A stretch of 64,000 nt of DNA from an uncultured cyanobacterium (GTDB lineage Bacteria; Cyanobacteriota; Cyanobacteriia; PCC-6307; Cyanobiaceae). Positions within the stretch are counted from its first letter, which is position 1; each line of letters begins with the position of its first letter. Shown piece after piece: positions 9,554 through 21,495 of the stretch. Both the position numbers and the translations under genes were made by a program. The notes beneath the pieces are model-generated. The model made no database searches and was not told the DNA's origin. It was given only the letters and a program-made list of their open reading frames with translations. The DNA lies in contig CAIXBB010000038.1 of the NCBI GenBank assembly GCA_903917565.1, positions 124,001 to 188,000 of the forward strand, written 5' to 3'.

Positions 9554-9928
9554 GTGCCGCGCGCCCAGATCGTCCTGACCTGTGGTGCCGGCGAAACCAA
9601 CACGTCAATCGCCAAGCCGATTGGCCTGAGCAACATAACTGGAGGCCGGTGGCGCAAAGGCCACCGGGACCTGGCCCTGGAGGGCTGGAAGGATGAACTG
9701 CGTCCGGGGGTCCTCGGACCTACGAGACTGCGACAAGCATTTCCAAAACGTCGGTTCATTGATGGCTGCCCAGCTTTCTGGTGCAGCCTCACCGGCAGAA
9801 GATGTACCGCTTCGCGGAAGCCTGACGGCAACAAGCTCTCCCCCAACCGCTGCTGCCCATGGGCCTCGGCTACGTCAAGGGCGTCACCCCTGACGACATC
9901 CGCCACGGCGCCAACACCCTGTTAGGGA
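9554..9928 (+). pseudogene. IS630-family transposase remnant
   Basis: Translated across frames it shows the IS630 N-terminal helix-turn-helix region (RAQIVLTCGAGETNTSIAK, WRKGHRDLALEGWKDELRPG), then LVQPHRQKMY, then the first part of the DDE domain (LLPMGLGYVKGVTPDDIRHG followed by ANTLL). Frameshifts separate these blocks. The segment expected between the PHRQK block and the PLLPMGLGY block is missing, and a small repeat sits at that junction. The gene stops abruptly after ANTLL, where the terminal sequence of the first IS5 element begins. Confidence 0.85.
9806..9832 (+). repeat. Small dispersed repeat, copy A (in IS630 remnant)
   Basis: The core ACCGCTTCGCGGAAGCCTG carries an inverted pair GCTTC/GAAGC around a GCG loop. 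It matches the inserts in the IS5 and IS481 remnants and lies where part of the transposase gene is missing. Confidence 0.7.
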
Positions 9929-9947
9929 GACTCTGGATAAGTCCCCC
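9925..9947 (+). repeat. Left terminal inverted repeat of the first IS5-type element
   Basis: GGGAGACTCTGGATAAGTCC lies at the point where IS630 homology ends and about 50 bases before the IS5 transposase start. A related sequence (TCTGAATAAATCC) stands at the same distance before the second IS5 copy. A matching right end was not found after 11046. Confidence 0.6.
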
Positions 9948-10013
9948 CATTCACGGGACAATGGCATTGTCATCTTTGGTAAGGACTGGGTTCATGGGTG
10001 GCAAGCAGCTCGG

Positions 10014-10041
10014 CCACCGCTTCGCGGAAGGCTTTGCCTAC
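10014..10041 (+). repeat. Small dispersed repeat, copy B
   Basis: Contains ACCGCTTCGCGGAAGGCTTT. The surrounding protein reads LG-HRFAEGFAYG-DYEH where the second IS5 copy has LG-FS-DFEK: a net gain of exactly 8 codons, in frame. Confidence 0.8.
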
Positions 10042-10685
10042 GGCGACTACGAGCATTCCACGGCCAAGAAGCGCACCAAGCGTGAGAAGTTTCTGGCCGA
10101 GATAGAGGCGGTTGTGCCTTGGCAAGCGCTCATCGATCTGATCGAGCCTCACCACCCCAAATCCAGCTCCAAGTCGGACGCCCGGCCTATCCGCTGGCCA
10201 ACATGCTGGGGATCCACTTGATGCAGCAGTGGTACTCGCTCAGAGATCCAGCGATGGAGGATGCGCTGATCGAAGCTCCCCTCATGCGCCGTTTCGCAGG
10301 GATCGACATGATCAGCGAGCGGATCCCCGATGAGACCACGATCCTTGCATTTCGGCACCTGCTGAAGAAGCACAACCTCGGCGAGAAGATCTTTCAGGCG
10401 GTGAAAGCCCATCTCAAGGACCGCGGCATGGCCATGAAGAAGGGCACGATTATTGATGCCAGCTTGATCGCCGCCCCCAGTTCGCCCAAAAACAAAGATT
10501 GGGAGAGAGATCCGGAGATGCACCAGACCAAGAAGGGCAACCAGTGGGACTACGGGATGAACGTCCACATCGGCGTCGACAAGGACTCAGGCCTCATCCA
10601 TTCGGTGGAGACCAACGCGGCCACTGTGCGCGACCTCACGCCAGCAGCCGCGCTGCTGCAAGGTGGGGAGGATGTGCGCTACGCC

Positions 10686-10715
10686 GTAGCCGCAGGCTTC
10701 TGCGAAGCAGTTGCC
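10686..10715 (-). repeat. Small dispersed repeat, copy C (reverse orientation)
   Basis: Plus-strand core GCCGCAGGCTTCTGCGAAGC; its complement, GCTTCGCAGAAGCCTG, matches copies A and B. It lies before GYQGIEK in the transposase and reads AVAAGFCEAVA where family members usually have three residues (from memory), again a gain of 8 codons. Confidence 0.75.
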
Positions 10716-10850
10716 GGCTACCAAGGCATCGAGAAACGCCCTGAAATGGAGGGCAAGACCACCACCTTTCGCATTGCCATGCGACCCGGGGAAAGGCGCG
10801 CCTTGCCCAATACAGCCGAGGGGCGACAGGATGACCTGGTCGAGACAGCC

Positions 10851-10877
10851 CTAGACGCAGGCTTCTGCTTGCAGTAG
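10851..10877 (-). repeat. Small dispersed repeat, copy D (reverse orientation, brings a stop codon)
   Basis: Contains GACGCAGGCTTCTGC, shared with copy C apart from its first base. The protein reads ETA-LDAGFCLQ-stop-AHIRAK where the second IS5 copy has ETA-K-GNVRAK: 9 codons for 1, a net gain of 24 bases. The inserted TAG truncates the frame. Confidence 0.8.
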
Positions 10878-11046
10878 GCTCATATCCGTGCCAAGGCTGA
10901 GCACCCATTCCCACGTGATCAAGCAGCAGTTCGGATTTCGGAAAACTCGCCTGCGGGGCATGGTCAAGAATCGCTGCCAGGTCAACGTGCTGGCTGCATT
11001 GACCAATCTTTTTCCTGTGCGTCATCAATTTCTATGCAGGACATGA

Positions 11047-11802
11047 TCGGACGAGTGGTGTGCCGTCAGGGCCAGAATGGAGCCATAAAACCAGGGTAAA
11101 ATTGCCCGAAAGTTCTGAAATCAGGCCGATTCTTACTGGATCTGCACCGAGAATGGCCACCGCAAACATTTGGGGACCCCAGATATCGCTCCCAGGCTTG
11201 TTGCCCAGAGCTTCCCTAGGTGTCTACTCTGCAAGGATTGGCGCGAGTGAAGTCGAGACTCAGCTGGGGATAGTCTGAGGGTTCAGGTCATTGATGAGAT
11301 CATTGGCGCCAAAAAGCGCATCGACAACATATAGCGTCTAACATTGCCATTCACCAGACATGCCACCTTCTGAGGCATAGAGCTCACAAGAAGGTGGGAT
11401 TGAGTGGATCGAGGGCCTGATCCGCCCCCTTCCCAAGCCTCCTGAGCGAATGGCTGGCAGGAATGCGCTCCTCGATCAGACACGCAGGAGAACCAAGAGA
11501 TGCTTCGCGCCTATTGACCTCGCATCACGATTGGGCAATTATTGCCCATTTTGGCAGAGGTGGTCTGGATTTTCAACGAACTCCTAAGCTGCTCCGATGA
11601 TGGGCAAAGACGGCCTCTGGTAGTCCCCAGTTGGCTTCTTGGTTGAAGTGAAATCACCAGGAACAAGGTCAATTCCCATGCACCGGAATGGGTCTTGAAT
11701 TCGTCCCACCCCCTGAACCGGTACCGTCTTGCACCACTGTTATAATTGGTGAAGGTGCGGATGCACCCTAAGGAACCATGACGACAACATTGCAGCGCAC
11801 GT
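11047..11802. other. Stretch without a recognisable gene inside the IS island
   Basis: About 750 bases between the first IS5 remnant and the 413-residue membrane protein. Only short open frames occur and none resembles a family I know. It may hold the lost right end of the IS5 element and the promoter of the downstream gene, but neither is visible with confidence. Confidence 0.5.
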
Positions 11803-13044
11803 ATGAAGATTCCAGCGATCAACCGGGGGCGGTCCGGCAGCAAAGCCGACCACCTCTTCCTTGCTGGATTGGCTGCTGCTTTGCTCATCTCTGCTGCGTA
11901 CATCCTCCTGGATTCGGGCACACCCCTGCCGCACCCGATGGACCAGGCATTCATCACATCCGCTGACCTCCGGATCAGAACAGAAAATGGGCATTGGATC
12001 TTTCGTTATCCAAATTTGATGTTCTCGGGGGGGATCTCCTCGAGTATGATCGTGGGACTCTACAAGCTTCTGGTTCCTACGAGTCTTGAGAATCTGAACT
12101 GGCATATCAGGATTTTTTCCATGGTTTGCTATCTCAGCAGCTCCTTCCTCCTAATCCAACAACTGATCAGCACTTCGGCACTACGCCTCCTGGCGCTGGC
12201 AATTTTAACCACCTCCGGATTTCAGTTCATCCAACCCAGCAGTGAGCTGATCGCTGGAAGCTTCCTGACGATGTTTCTGGTTGCAACCATCAATCGCTGG
12301 CCGCTGTTGCTGGCATCGTTTTTTCTGGCGATGTTTGGGCTTGCAAAAGTCGAAATGCTGGTTGCTTCGATCGTCATGGCAGGCTTCTGGTGGCTTTGGG
12401 AGCGACGGCGCGGCAATCCACAAGCACTGTTGACAATCCTGCTTACGGGAGCATGGCTAGGCCTATTGTTGCTGCCAGGCTTCTTCATCCAAGGTGCAAA
12501 CATCAACGAGATGGATCGAAGCATGGTGGCCTTTATTTTCACCTATGCGGAGTTATTTTCCCCACATCAGTTCATCTCCTCCACCCAATCAATCGATGAG
12601 GTCAGTGTTCAACTTCAAACAGGCAAGTTTCTAGGCGCTCACTCTGTACTCCAATTCATTGCTCAACATCCATCCCACTACGTCGATTATCTCGCACTCT
12701 CCTTCTTCAAGGGATTAGGGCAGCTCCTCTACTCCTTGAAATTCATGATACTCCCCATGACATTAATACTCGGATTCAGGGCGAAGCGTTTTCGCCCTCT
12801 GATGGTCCTCCTGCTCGTTGCGAGTGTGCTCACATTGCTGCCTGCATGGATGTTCTCCTATGTAAGAGTCCGCTATCTGGTGAAGCTCTTCCCTGCCTTC
12901 ATTGCCTTGACGATTTCAGGCTGCGAGGAACTGGAGCCATCTCTTCCCTGGATCGGGAAAATACTGTGGGCCAGTGGAATCGGCACAATCCTATGGCAAC
13001 TGAAATACTTCGATGATATGTGGATGTTTTCTCACTGGCACTGA
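11803..13044 (+). CDS. Polytopic membrane protein, possible GT-C-like transferase, unknown function
   Basis: 413 residues with about nine or ten hydrophobic segments (for example 18-38, 102-122, 126-150, 158-188, 207-228, 305-325, 334-358), so an integral membrane protein. The layout, with a first long outside loop containing LPHPMDQAF and ENGHWIFRYPNLMF, and basic residues on cytoplasmic sides (WERRRGN, RAKRFRP), recalls lipid-linked sugar transferases of the GT-C type, but no diagnostic motif is certain. The frame is uninterrupted although both neighbours are dead IS5 copies in direct orientation, so it may be cargo. Its codon use appears more AT-rich than the housekeeping genes. Confidence 0.72.
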   Translation: MKIPAINRGRSGSKADHLFLAGLAAALLISAAYILLDSGTPLPHPMDQAFITSADLRIRTENGHWIFRYPNLMFSGGISSSMIVGLYKLLVPTSLENLNWHIRIFSMVCYLSSSFLLIQQLISTSALRLLALAILTTSGFQFIQPSSELIAGSFLTMFLVATINRWPLLLASFFLAMFGLAKVEMLVASIVMAGFWWLWERRRGNPQALLTILLTGAWLGLLLLPGFFIQGANINEMDRSMVAFIFTYAELFSPHQFISSTQSIDEVSVQLQTGKFLGAHSVLQFIAQHPSHYVDYLALSFFKGLGQLLYSLKFMILPMTLILGFRAKRFRPLMVLLLVASVLTLLPAWMFSYVRVRYLVKLFPAFIALTISGCEELEPSLPWIGKILWASGIGTILWQLKYFDDMWMFSHWH

Positions 13045-13053
13045 AAACTGCTA

Positions 13054-13076
13054 AGAAATCTCTGAATAAATCCACT
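13054..13076 (+). repeat. Probable left end of the second IS5-type element
   Basis: TCTGAATAAATCCAC, about 50 bases before the second transposase start, parallels TCTGGATAAGTCCCC before the first. It is degenerate. Confidence 0.45.
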
Positions 13077-13539
13077 AAAATCCATCCAGATCCAAGACTG
13101 AGACTGGTCGCATGCCTGCCACTCTCCAGCTGGGTTTTTCAGACTTCGAGAAGACATACGCAAAGAACCGAACCCCTCGCCAGCGATTCCTGCAGAAGAT
13201 GGAAGCAACCATTCACCGGGAAGCGTTTCTGGCCCTGATCCAGCCCATCGATCACCAGCCAGCCGGCCACCAAGGGTGGGGTCGTCCTCCGTTTCCAATG
13301 GAGATCATGCTCCTGTTCCCCTGCTGGAGCAGTCGTTCACCCTCTCGGACCCACTGATTGAGGAGATGCTGATCGATTCGACCGGCTTCCGCCGTTTCGC
13401 CGGTATCGAAATAATCGAAGACCGGATCCCGGATGAAACCACGATCTTCAACTTCCGTCTGCTGCTGGAAGAGCACCGCATCGCCGAGCAGATCCTTCAG
13501 GGAATGAACCAGATGCTGAGCGAGAAAGGGGTGATGCTG

Positions 13540-13565
13540 TAGACGAAGTCGGCCGGAGGCCATGG
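13540..13565 (+). repeat. Hairpin-type insert, second kind, copy 1
   Basis: Relative to the first IS5 copy (MKKGTI), the frame ML-KGTI is split by about 26 bases beginning TAGACG and containing GGCCGGAGGCC. The insert brings a stop codon and shifts the frame. Confidence 0.6.
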
Positions 13566-13619
13566 AAAGGCACGATCCTCGATGCCACGATCATTGCCGC
13601 CCCCAGCTCCACCCTTACC

Positions 13620-13650
13620 GAGGCCGGAGGCCGAGCGTGGCGGAGCCACT
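13620..13650 (+). repeat. Hairpin-type insert, second kind, copy 2
   Basis: The insert between the PSST and NKRKER blocks contains GGCCGGAGGCC and then a perfect small hairpin, GTGGC-GGA-GCCAC (13637-13649). It shares the first motif with the insert at 13540. Confidence 0.6.
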
Positions 13651-13711
13651 AGAACAAGCGCAAGGAGAGGGGTCAGGAAATGCACTCGGTGGCCAAGGGC
13701 AAGCAGTGGTT

Positions 13712-13739
13712 CCACTGCTGCGCAGAAGGCTTCGCCGAT
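13712..13739 (+). repeat. Small dispersed repeat, copy E
   Basis: Contains CACTGCTGCGCAGAAGGC. The protein reads QW-FHCCAEGFADG-MRCHIG where the first IS5 copy has QW-DYG-MNVHIG: a net gain of 8 codons, in frame. Confidence 0.8.
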
Positions 13740-14309
13740 GGGATGCGCTGCCATATCGGCGTTGACGCCGCATCTGGCTTGGTCCACTCCGTGGTTAGCA
13801 GCGCAGCCGACGTCCATGAGCTCAACACAGCAGCTAACCGGCTCCATGGGGCATCGAGAAACAAAACCAGTTCCAGGACTGCGAAGCAGAGCTCAGGATT
13901 GCCATGAAGCCAGGCCAACGCATAGTGCTTCCAGAGACACCAGAGGGCAGTCTTCTGGATCTGATTGAGACGGCGAAGGGCAACGTCCGCGCCAAAGTGG
14001 AGCCTCGCTTCCGGATCGCCAAATGTCGGTTTGGCTTCCGGAAGGTCTTCTATCGAGGCATCCGTAAGAAAGACCTCAAACTGAAGTTGCTCTTTGCCCT
14101 GGCTAACCTCTCGATGGCACGGCAACGACTACCTGAGCCAGCGTGACAGGTGAGCTTATTGTGTCAGAAAATCGATAAACATCCAGAAATCAAGCAAAAC
14201 GCCTGGTGGAAACTGCCTGAACGTCTTTGCTGGGACTGCTGGGAGCGAAAACAGGGCAAAAGCGTTCAGTATCGTCTCATTGGCGACAATGAGACAAGAT
14301 TTTTTTGAT

Positions 14310-14945
14310 CAAGCCGTCTTGATCTGAGTTGCCTTAGGTGTAGTTCCCCCACCAGGTTGATGATGCCTGTAGCTGATCGAGCCGCTGAGTTGCCGTAGGG
14401 GATCACGTAGGCCCATTCCTCCAGCAAAGTCCACTGCTTCTCGGAGGCCTGCGGTCAGATGAACCGCTCGGCTCGCGAAGCCGACCGTGGTCGGCCCCGG
14501 GTGAGGAAGCCTTGCGCGGATCTCCGGTGATCCGGTGGCTAACACGGTTGAACCGGGCCGCTCCCACCGTTACCGGTGCACCGGCGGTCGCTGTTTCGCG
14601 CCAGGGGGTCGCGGATCCGCAGCCGTTTCAGCCCCAGGCACCGCTTTCGCCTGGACCAGGGTGCTGATCGGTACCAGCAGCAGCGGGGCGATCCTCCGGC
14701 GGGTGCAGCGCTGGCGCCTGAGGTCCAGGGGCTGCTGCCGCTGCTGCGGTTCGACGCAGTGTCCGTCAGCGCCGCTGGGCCGCCTGTACGGAAGCGATCC
14801 AGCCACTTGCGGGCCGAGCGCCCACTGATGCCGTGCTCAGAAGCCAGCTCAGCAAGGCTCCTGCTCTGGTCAAGGTGTTGCCGGATCAGGTGTTCCCGAC
14901 CGATCGGTGTCAGGCGGGCATTGGGATGTACAGGCGTTGGGGGGG
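14310..14945 (-). pseudogene. IS481-family transposase remnant
   Basis: Read on the minus strand: [17 protein letters not shown], then a helix-turn-helix block [20 protein letters not shown], then in another frame [19 protein letters not shown] and [20 protein letters not shown] jump follows to the C-terminal blocks RAVHL (native family about AERFI) and LLEEWAYVIPYGNSAARSA. The central DDE core is missing and several frames are used. It is the opposite orientation to the IS5 copies and sits just upstream of rpoZ. Confidence 0.82.
14431..14458 (+). repeat. Small dispersed repeat, copy F (in IS481 remnant)
   Basis: CCACTGCTTCTCGGAGGCCT matches the IS5 inserts. It lies between the ERFI-like and LLEEWAY blocks of the transposase, which are normally two codons apart in this family (from memory), so it too is an insert of about 24 bases. 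Confidence 0.68.
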
Positions 14946-19908: not shown

Positions 19909-21495
19909 ATGACGAAGGTTCTGGTCTCCGATCCCATCGACCAGGCGGGGATCGACATCCTCTCCCAGGTTGCCCAGGTGGACGTGCGCACGGGCCTCAG
20001 CCCGGAGCAGCTGGTGGCCTGCATCGGCGACTACGACGGGCTGATGATCCGCTCCGGCACCCAGGTGACCGCCGAGGTGATCGAGGCCGCCGGACAGCTG
20101 CGGATCATCGGCCGGGCTGGCGTCGGGGTCGACAACGTCGATGTGCCCGCCGCCACCCGTCGCGGCGTGATCGTCGTGAATTCTCCTGAAGGCAACACGA
20201 TCGCCGCCGCCGAGCATGCCCTGGCGCTGATGCTCTCCCTCTCGCGGCACGTGCCCCACGCCCACGCCAGCACCATGGCCGGCGGCTGGGACCGCAAGAC
20301 CTACGTGGGCAACGAGCTCTACAAGAAAACCCTGGGCGTGGTGGGCCTCGGCAAAATCGGCTCCCACGTGGCCCGCGTCGCCCGGGCCCTGGGGATGGAC
20401 GTGGCCGCCTACGACCCGTTCATCTCCGCCGAGCGTGCCCAGCTGCTGCAGGTACGGCTGCTGCCCCTGCCCCAGCTGTTCGCCGAAGCCGACTACGTCA
20501 GCCTGCACCTGCCCCGCACGCCGGACACGGAGAACCTGGTCAACGCGGCGCTGCTGGCCTCGATGAAGCCCACCGCCCGGCTGGTGAACTGCGCCCGGGG
20601 CGGCATCATCGACGAACAGGCCCTGGCCGATGCGGTGGAAAACCGGGTGATCGCCGGCGCGGCGATCGACGTGTACGCCAAGGAACCGCTGGCGGCCGAT
20701 TCGCCGCTGCGCCTCGTCAAGGAACGCCTGATCCTCACCCCCCACCTGGGGGCCTCCACGGAGGAAGCCCAGGAAAACGTGGCCATCGACGTGGCCGAGC
20801 AGATCCGGGACGTGCTCCTGGGCCTGCCGGCCCGCAGCGCCGTGAACATCCCCGGCCTGACCGCCGAGGTGATGGAGCAGCTCAAGCCCCATCTGCAGCT
20901 GGCCGAAACCCTGGGCCTGCTGCTCAGCCAGCTGGCCGGTGGCCAGATCAGTGAGCTGGAGGTGCGGCTGCAGGGGGAATTCGCCTCCCATCCGGCCCAG
21001 CCCCTGGTGGTGGCGGCCCTCAAGGGGATCCTGTCGGCCGCCCTCGGGGACAGCATCAATTATGTCAACGCCAGCCTGGAGGCCAAGGAGCGCGGCATCC
21101 GCGTGCTCGAGGTGAAGGACGACACCAGCCGCGACTTCGCCGGCGGCTCGCTCCAGCTCAGCTCCCGCAGCCCCAAAGGGAACCACAGCGTCACCGGGGC
21201 GGTGTTCGCCGACGGTGAACTGCGCATCACCACCATCGACGAATTCCCGGTGAACGTGACCCCGAGCCGCCACATGCTGTTCACCCGCCACCGGGACATG
21301 CCCGGCATCATCGGCCAGCTGGGTTCCCTGCTCGGGGAGCACAACGTCAACATCGCCTCGATGCAGGTGGGGCGCCGCATCGTGCGGGGCGATGCCGTGA
21401 TGGTGCTGAGTCTCGACGACCCGATCCCCCCCAGCCTGCTGGCGGCGATCCACAGCATCAACGGCATCCAGGCCGCCCATCCGGTCACCCTCTGA
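19909..21495 (+). CDS. serA: D-3-phosphoglycerate dehydrogenase
   Basis: 528 residues, the long three-domain form. It oxidises 3-phosphoglycerate to 3-phosphohydroxypyruvate, the first step of serine synthesis. Seen are the NAD-binding motif [20 protein letters not shown], catalytic-region blocks [14 protein letters not shown] and [17 protein letters not shown], an intervening domain ([20 protein letters not shown]), and a C-terminal ACT domain ([28 protein letters not shown]). The ACT domain suggests control by serine, not shown here. It overlaps prmA by one base (TGATG), so the two are translationally coupled. Confidence 0.97.

Follow-up and report, generated by a model that had tools for sequence, protein, structure and literature searches.

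Why do short repeated blocks lie inside the remains of transposase genes, and how can several of them add exactly eight codons to their hosts? The question is raised by a stretch of 64,000 nucleotides from an uncultured picocyanobacterium of the Cyanobiaceae, hereafter called the window (positions 124001-188000 of contig C38 in genome G000, which comprises 3.02 Mb in 46 contigs and is 99.94% complete); genomes, contigs and collected loci bear our labels G, C and L. An earlier note, made from the letters of this DNA, had pointed to six such blocks as a tiny dispersed-repeat family caught as filled and empty sites. All six are present at the positions first given and the data match that description: this is a real mobile-like family of micro-repeats with a precise insertion signature. 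The element replaces three bases of a target C-NTB-R, and the target sets its orientation. We think it likely that the blocks represent a non-coding mobile element of picocyanobacteria, very small in size, whose copies are inserted 27 bases for 3 at this motif by an enzyme acting in trans.

The insertion signature can be read from relatives of the window's IS5-type transposases, which gave matches in 31 of the 42 genomes of the genus and show the window's sites in their empty forms: LGF(S/G/T)DYE at site A (in 15 relatives listed), QW..GM at site B, VVYADAGYQG at site C and ETAKAHIRAK at site D. The three filled/empty comparisons between IS5 copies made in the earlier note, each with a gain of 8 codons, are correct. 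The 24-base repeat deduced from them survives as a net gain of 24 bases; the unit itself is 27 bases long (28 at 9805) and stands in place of 3, with no plain 24-base insert. For 130 distinct copies both flanks were sought in the loci collected, with 0-8 bases allowed between them. This gave a candidate empty allele for 117 copies, the gap being 3 in 90. Among confident pairs (at least 38 of 48 flank bases equal) the gap was 3 in 71 of 76 and 2 in the other 5; weaker pairs had a gap of 3 in 11 of 12 when 35-37 flank bases were equal and in 8 of 29 below 35, the rest being scattered. Elements vary from 27 to 29 bases, and the longer forms likewise replace 3 bases: a gap of 3 was best for 20 of the 28-base copies, which yield a net gain of 25. 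In a separate gap scan of pairwise alignments, 75 of 123 family inserts measured 24 bases and 17 measured 25. Replacement of 3 bases by 27 (or by 28) is therefore the description that fits both gains, and the net gain of an insertion is firm. In 55 pairs, the base to the left of the element agrees with the empty allele in 87% and the base to the right in 98%.

The target emerges from 33 merged sites. A C precedes the replaced bases in 26 of them, the middle base is T in 29, the third base is never A and a purine follows in 30; the corresponding binomial P values are about 2e-8 for the C, 2e-17 for the T and 7e-7 for the purine, sites within one gene family not being fully independent. The middle T is lost on insertion, since T in the empty allele faces A in the element in 60 of 71 pairs. 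In open coding stretches 80% of all C-NTB-R motifs lie in sense phase 0, antisense phase 0 or antisense phase 2. The phased copies (49 of 78) occupy just these phases, with 19, 15 and 15 copies respectively; that none of the 49 falls in another phase, where about 20% were expected, weighs little since sites repeat. Because the target motif favours those phases, the in-frame look of the inserts is mostly explained without selection. C-NTB-R would often coincide with a codon in GC-rich genes, and since replacement of 3 bases by 27 would then keep the frame, copies in transposases would often amount to eight additional codons with no selection involved. Reading-frame selection as the cause of the gain of 24 was considered and rejected: 28-base copies also replace three bases and the phase bias largely follows the motif.

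The element has the consensus NACYGC-TNC-GCRGA-AGSC-TNY-GSCT-A-B, that is, two tandem 4-bp hairpins with 3-base loops within about 27 bases, and both stems are maintained by compensatory changes. In all loci collected by then, taking one row per distinct flank and placing no constraint on the tested bases, pair 4-12 (of 27) in stem 1 was T-A in 102 rows, C-G in 101 and something else in 4 (203 of 207 paired), while pair 5-11 was G-C in 193, C-G in 13 and other in 1 of the 207. Both tested pairs of stem 2 were Watson-Crick in 154 of 161 rows (CC/GG 116, GC/GC 30, AC/GT 6, CG/CG 2). These counts are a fairer measure than the covariation score of 0.303 (0.089 shuffled, the score being reached in 0 of 500 shuffles; at most 0.081 slid), which was obtained with 37 variants hand-chosen for variety. 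The compensatory stem changes that the earlier note had suggested looking for are thus present in both stems. The GCTTC/GAAGC stem that it had drawn is not the conserved one, being broken in copies with TGC, TAC or TCC loops. Loop 1 reads TNC in 193 of 199 copies (TTC 94, TGC 74, TAC 15, TCC 10) and loop 2 in 124 of 148. Seen on the opposite strand, almost every loop is a GNA closed by C-G, and the d(GC-GNA-GC) mini-hairpin is very stable.

By parsimony, one transposase site has been filled several times. Site B carries an element in 16 of 37 IS5 copies, which requires at least 8 changes on the tree, and a single clade of filled copies is rejected (p 1.9e-5); when three degenerate or long rows are removed, 13 of 34 are filled and still 8 changes are needed. 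Read by pattern, which leaves rows like L076 unread, 4 of 27 rows are filled at site A and 2 of 25 at site C, with 4 and 2 changes respectively. Five filled site-B copies are open frames of 341 residues (L200, L270, L280, L179, L204), and empty copies, where intact, have 333 or 346; L074, which is probably the same locus as L270, carries the same 341-residue filled frame. Intact relatives therefore do carry the additional residues, as the earlier note had envisaged for native sequence, yet they do so beside empty 333-residue alleles. As the filled frame is one allele among these, the residues are not native.

Beyond the IS5 sites, a profile search of the whole genome showed the excess over control that the earlier note had anticipated. 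The exact core gave 6 matches and its reversed-pattern control none; a slightly tighter core with up to 2 mismatches gave 26 against 8. With a covariance model (R1; 37 rows, copies from this and other genomes), 13 places were found at E <= 0.06, the next six beginning at E 1.09: five in the window, two on C2, one on C12, four on C43 and one on C4. Five of these 13 sequences (10015, 10686, 13713, one on C2 and the one on C12) are themselves training rows, which makes their scores partly circular. IS1182-like remnants, recognised by reading, hold several copies in both orientations at two contig ends (L035, G000:C43:42900-43600, and L034, G000:C12:37475-38355). The family had been thought private to this genome. 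It is not: the core with at most 1 mismatch occurs in 83 of 251 genomes of the family Cyanobiaceae and in 18 of 59 genera, the reversed pattern giving 1 hit in each of 2 genomes. In named genomes the exact pattern matched at least 120 stretches; the titles among the 80 of these listed are Cyanobium, Synechococcus, Vulcanococcus, unnamed cyanobacteria and one 'Microcystis elabens', with no Nostoc among those 80.

Within the window, the core pattern with up to 2 mismatches matches 9 times against 2.57 expected, a number reached in 0 of 100 shuffles. The claim that the six blocks form one family stands for five, which are clear copies of one small repeat (R1 E 1e-9 to 1e-3; the scores at 10015, 10686 and 13713 are partly circular, since these sequences are among the 37 rows of the model, and those at 9805 and 10851 are not). 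The sixth, 14432-14458, is counted as a decayed copy because the same site holds well-preserved copies in L170 and L173. All hosts are transposase remnants, as claimed, though not all of IS5 type (Table 1): the host type of the copy at 9805 has DDE_3 in the protein of a relative, and its empty allele is found in L131, where TTC is present and 42 of 48 flank bases are equal. Site C is filled also in L076 and L256, and L174 has the same degenerate form as the window at site D.

Table 1. Element copies, sibling elements and host genes in the window (E values from covariance model R1)
Feature	Position	Strand	Remarks
Element copy, 28-base form (4-base loop in hairpin 2)	9805..9832	+	replaces TTC in IS630-type transposase remnant; E 1.7e-4
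Element copy at IS5 site A (LG-F-..DYE)	10015..10041	+	27 for TTC; E 1e-8, sequence in training set
Element copy at IS5 site C	10686..10712	-	27 for GTC (element strand); E 9.8e-10, sequence in training set
Degenerate copy at IS5 site D, 2-base loop in hairpin 1	10850..10876	-	codon AAG to 27 bases; E 1.3e-3 (10851-10876)
Element copy at IS5 site B (QW..GM)	13713..13739	+	27 for TTT; E 3.2e-7, sequence in training set
Decayed copy in integrase-core (IS481-like) transposase remnant	14432..14458	+	E 2 alone; integrase core in relative
Sibling element, GGCC-TCC-GGCC and GAC-TTC-GTC with TA (minus strand)	13540..13565	-	tandem-hairpin scan; gaps versus L077, L078
Longer sibling-like insert, GTGGC-TCC-GCCAC and GGCC-TCC-GGCC (minus strand)	13615..13652	-	gap versus L077
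Dead IS5-type transposase copy 1, host of three elements	9994..11043	+	tblastn span; DUF772 and DDE_Tnp_1; 80% identical to L067
Dead IS5-type transposase copy 2, host of the site B element and two sibling elements	13124..14143	+	tblastn span; 82% identical to L077

Hosts of the element include many unrelated genes and transposases of several families. Grouping by longest frame places the 130 copies in 53 host clusters, the five largest of which are transposases with 48 copies together. The IS5 and IS630 clusters were assigned by Pfam; the IS1182-like and ISAs1-like ones by NCBIfam models, with the fragments below the cut-offs; the IS3-like one by reading, a related frame lying above the IS3 cut-off. 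IS256, IS66 and integrase-core transposases are further hosts. Elements also occur in an HNH+HIT gene, a DUF3427 gene and, as identified by reading, a UDP-glucose dehydrogenase-like gene. Different element variants fill one intergenic site, next to a terminator-like inverted repeat, in four genomes (L039, L124, L130, L159), and Rfam gave no family at this site in the five loci searched. The HNH+HIT gene, of which a genome seems to have several copies, bears elements at several sites, some of them in long open frames (L042, L053, L125, L136, L142, L145, L153, L154). The UDP-glucose dehydrogenase-like pseudogene region at about 1100-1300 of L119 (G023:C1:2741200-2744000) has three copies, two of them 75 bases apart in an apparent tandem duplication.

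The gap scan also uncovered inserts of the same build with different stems, two of which lie in the second IS5 copy of the window. Inserts related to that at 13540..13565 are found in L084, L086, L106, L131 and L165, and relatives of that at 13615..13652 in L073, L102 and L196. Siblings have also entered element loops: in L145, L170 and L253 a sibling sits inside loop 1 of another element, at C-TTC-G in the reading that fits and hence at a legal target. A strict search for nested copies recovered L145 alone of these three cases, together with the spurious L044 and L102. In all six distinct places found, group II introns start exactly two bases 3′ of a two-hairpin element, whose end GGCTAC is followed by TT and then by the intron start GTGCCACGAG (L121 1244, L164 1261 and L165 921 on the minus strand, L166 1233, L168 914, and L224 5277 on the minus strand); this count comes from loci fetched for their elements and is thus a biased sample. 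Four of these loci (L121, L164, L166, L168) match Rfam group-II-D1D4-2. The element seems to serve the introns as a landing site, and not the other way round, much as terminators do for class C introns.

How such an element would move has to be weighed against the enzymes present. Neither the Y1 transposase domain (Y1_Tnp, PF01797) nor reverse transcriptase (RVT_1) gave a match in the element's own genome, the former being found in 23 and the latter in 15 of the 251 family genomes, and a resident Y1/RAYT transposase or reverse transcriptase was rejected as the mover there. Because both are missing from this genome, we propose a candidate trans-acting enzyme working on folded single strands: the hairpins would be recognised as folded single-stranded DNA and a copy inserted at the motif, probably during replication. 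Repeats of the repetitive extragenic palindromic (REP)/REPIN kind, moved by a resident RAYT (Y1 HUH) transposase, are an improbable alternative that we disfavour. Read backwards, the element starts with (G/C)TAG and a hairpin, like the GTAG-tagged REPs of PMC3733652, and PMC6006769 describes subclass 2.4 Y1 transposases, abundant in Cyanobacteria and Bacteroidetes, whose own genes bear inserted REPs; some element-bearing genomes do have a Y1 match (e.g. G205, G187, G198). But Y1 matches occur in far fewer genomes than the element (23 versus 83 of 251), and the high-copy genomes G235, G148 and G132 are, like G000, listed without one. Moreover, the G of GTAG is mostly the last base of the replaced target and so not an element tag, and many copies are intragenic.

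Somewhat less remote, though we still judge it unlikely, is that the element arises or spreads locally with no dedicated enzyme, by template switching or gene conversion between copies at short microhomologies, the hairpin-forming strand being copied. The searches for Y1 and reverse transcriptase brought up no candidate enzyme family, the unit is compact and palindromic, and many copies reside in multi-copy IS genes, where recombination is easy. A local process of this kind sits poorly with 33 distinct sites in unrelated genes, where a common unit of about 27 bases keeps fixed ends and makes a fixed replacement, and with sibling families that retain the same build on different stems. The open 341-residue frames carrying the insert at site B might recommend a quite different account, in which the additional residues are native parts of the transposase or selected in-frame protein inserts as in the Rickettsia palindromic elements. 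As a general explanation this is refuted, and we give it next to no credence: the element also lies antisense, as 28-base copies that shift the frame, within further genes and at an intergenic position, and most of the phase bias comes from the target motif.

A trans-mobilized element with 27-for-3 insertion is thus the reading we retain, with several points weighing against it. Neither a copy in motion nor an intermediate or an enzyme was observed. The borders of 27 and 3 bases are a convention, given that, of the replaced bases, the last is the same as in the empty allele in 73% of 55 pairs, and the first in 49%. DNA folding yields the two-hairpin fold, on both strands, for one of two variants, and the other variant folds differently; no hairpin forms at the empty target (16 of 33 sites against 15.9 expected). 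The 13 copies in the element's own genome lie on five contigs and are mostly clustered. Many branches of the site-B tree are weak and its support is moderate (15 of 40 starred), the group submitted to the approximately unbiased test was chosen after the site states had been seen, and recombination between IS copies could inflate the count of changes. Reverse transcriptases may also be linked to the element in other genomes. Three high-copy genomes possess them (G023, G205, G235), and in G205 a listed element copy is no more than 1 kb away from 6 of the 11 reverse transcriptase matches.

A wider reading is conceivable but strikes us as doubtful, namely that these elements are part of a phylum-wide superfamily of 25-30-base units defined by architecture (two tandem GNA-triloop single-strand hairpins plus TA) rather than sequence, which would substitute three bases at C-NTB-R without a known transposase and so form a separate class of transposition. 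The window contains 19 tandem hairpins with two 4-bp stems, nearly all with other loop classes; its shuffles averaged 9.6, and the highest of ten reached 13. The same generic count showed no excess in two loci of the Nostoc group (4 versus 3.2 and 1 versus 1.9). When looser stems are allowed in the window, the TNC/GNA loop classes number 3 against 0.35, and other loop classes likewise exceed the shuffles (63 versus 43.8).

As a mobile DNA unit of very small size, the family has defined borders, obeys a target rule and leaves a replacement signature, which any two genomes can be used to test, so that the old question of how cyanobacterial micro-repeats of about 25 bases move becomes directly testable. 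It also provides a simple, non-selective reason for such repeats to show up as in-frame protein inserts. A literature search among open-licence papers returned none on a picocyanobacterial repeat family. As far as the listings of that literature show, the element is known in kind, as a cyanobacterial small dispersed repeat, and new in its family, its target rule and its 3-base replacement.

Among known systems, the Rickettsia palindromic elements are hairpin units of about 100-150 bases that add codons in frame inside reading frames; they are much longer than the present element, whose kept frame is a by-product of target and length. Miniature inverted-repeat transposable elements share with it the character of small, palindromic, non-autonomous DNA. 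It differs from them in replacing three bases without target duplication, and no terminal inverted repeats were seen, though these were not searched for separately. With REP/REPIN sequences and their RAYT partners it has in common small hairpin repeats and (G/C)TAG at one end. It departs from them in the missing Y1 match of its own genome, its many intragenic copies, its 3-base replacement and its partly target-derived tag. Instead of an element-borne, unpaired GTAG/CGTC tag there is a TA and one further base, which changes with the target and is found also in the empty allele in 56 of 71 pairs, and the AG of GTAG lies in the stem. The RVT_1 domain that a reverse-transcriptase-linked element should have in its carrying genomes is absent from G000 and present in 15 of the 251.

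The closest parallel is with the small dispersed repeats (SDR) of Nostoc, above all SDR5, which were reportedly described by Elhai and colleagues in 2008 and range from about 21 to 27 bases. The element resembles them in size class, cyanobacterial hosts and dispersal, and also in its filled and empty sites and its insertion into other mobile elements (IS5, IS630, IS66, IS256, integrase-core and IS3, with IS1182 and ISAs1 below cut-off). At a permissive threshold (E up to 10) a known Nostoc repeat, which may be SDR5, matched 43 plasmid records, of which 38 are from Nostoc-group genera by name and 5 from Agrobacterium. In L300 it reads TCTC-TAC-GAGA GGC-TAC-GCC, again two tandem hairpins with TNC loops, so that the likeness to Nostoc repeats proposed earlier is borne out by a repeat of the same build in Nostoc-group plasmids, with different stems and ends. 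Positions 19969-20026 of this locus (Trichormus variabilis plasmid C) hold two distinct two-hairpin repeats separated by about 10 bases; one has a CCCC/GGGG stem and shares its ends, TAC...GCTAC, with the picocyanobacterial family. Near the Nostoc repeat the covariance model matched TACCCCTGCGGGGAAGC..GCTAC at E 8e-5. According to PMC4390886, SDR5 inserts between bases 3 and 4 of the HIP1 sequence, GCG^ATCGC, a site whose ATC followed by G would be compatible with NTB-R. The comparison, made with this one Nostoc repeat, supports the view that the element works like the small dispersed repeats of Nostoc but forms a separate, picocyanobacterial family.

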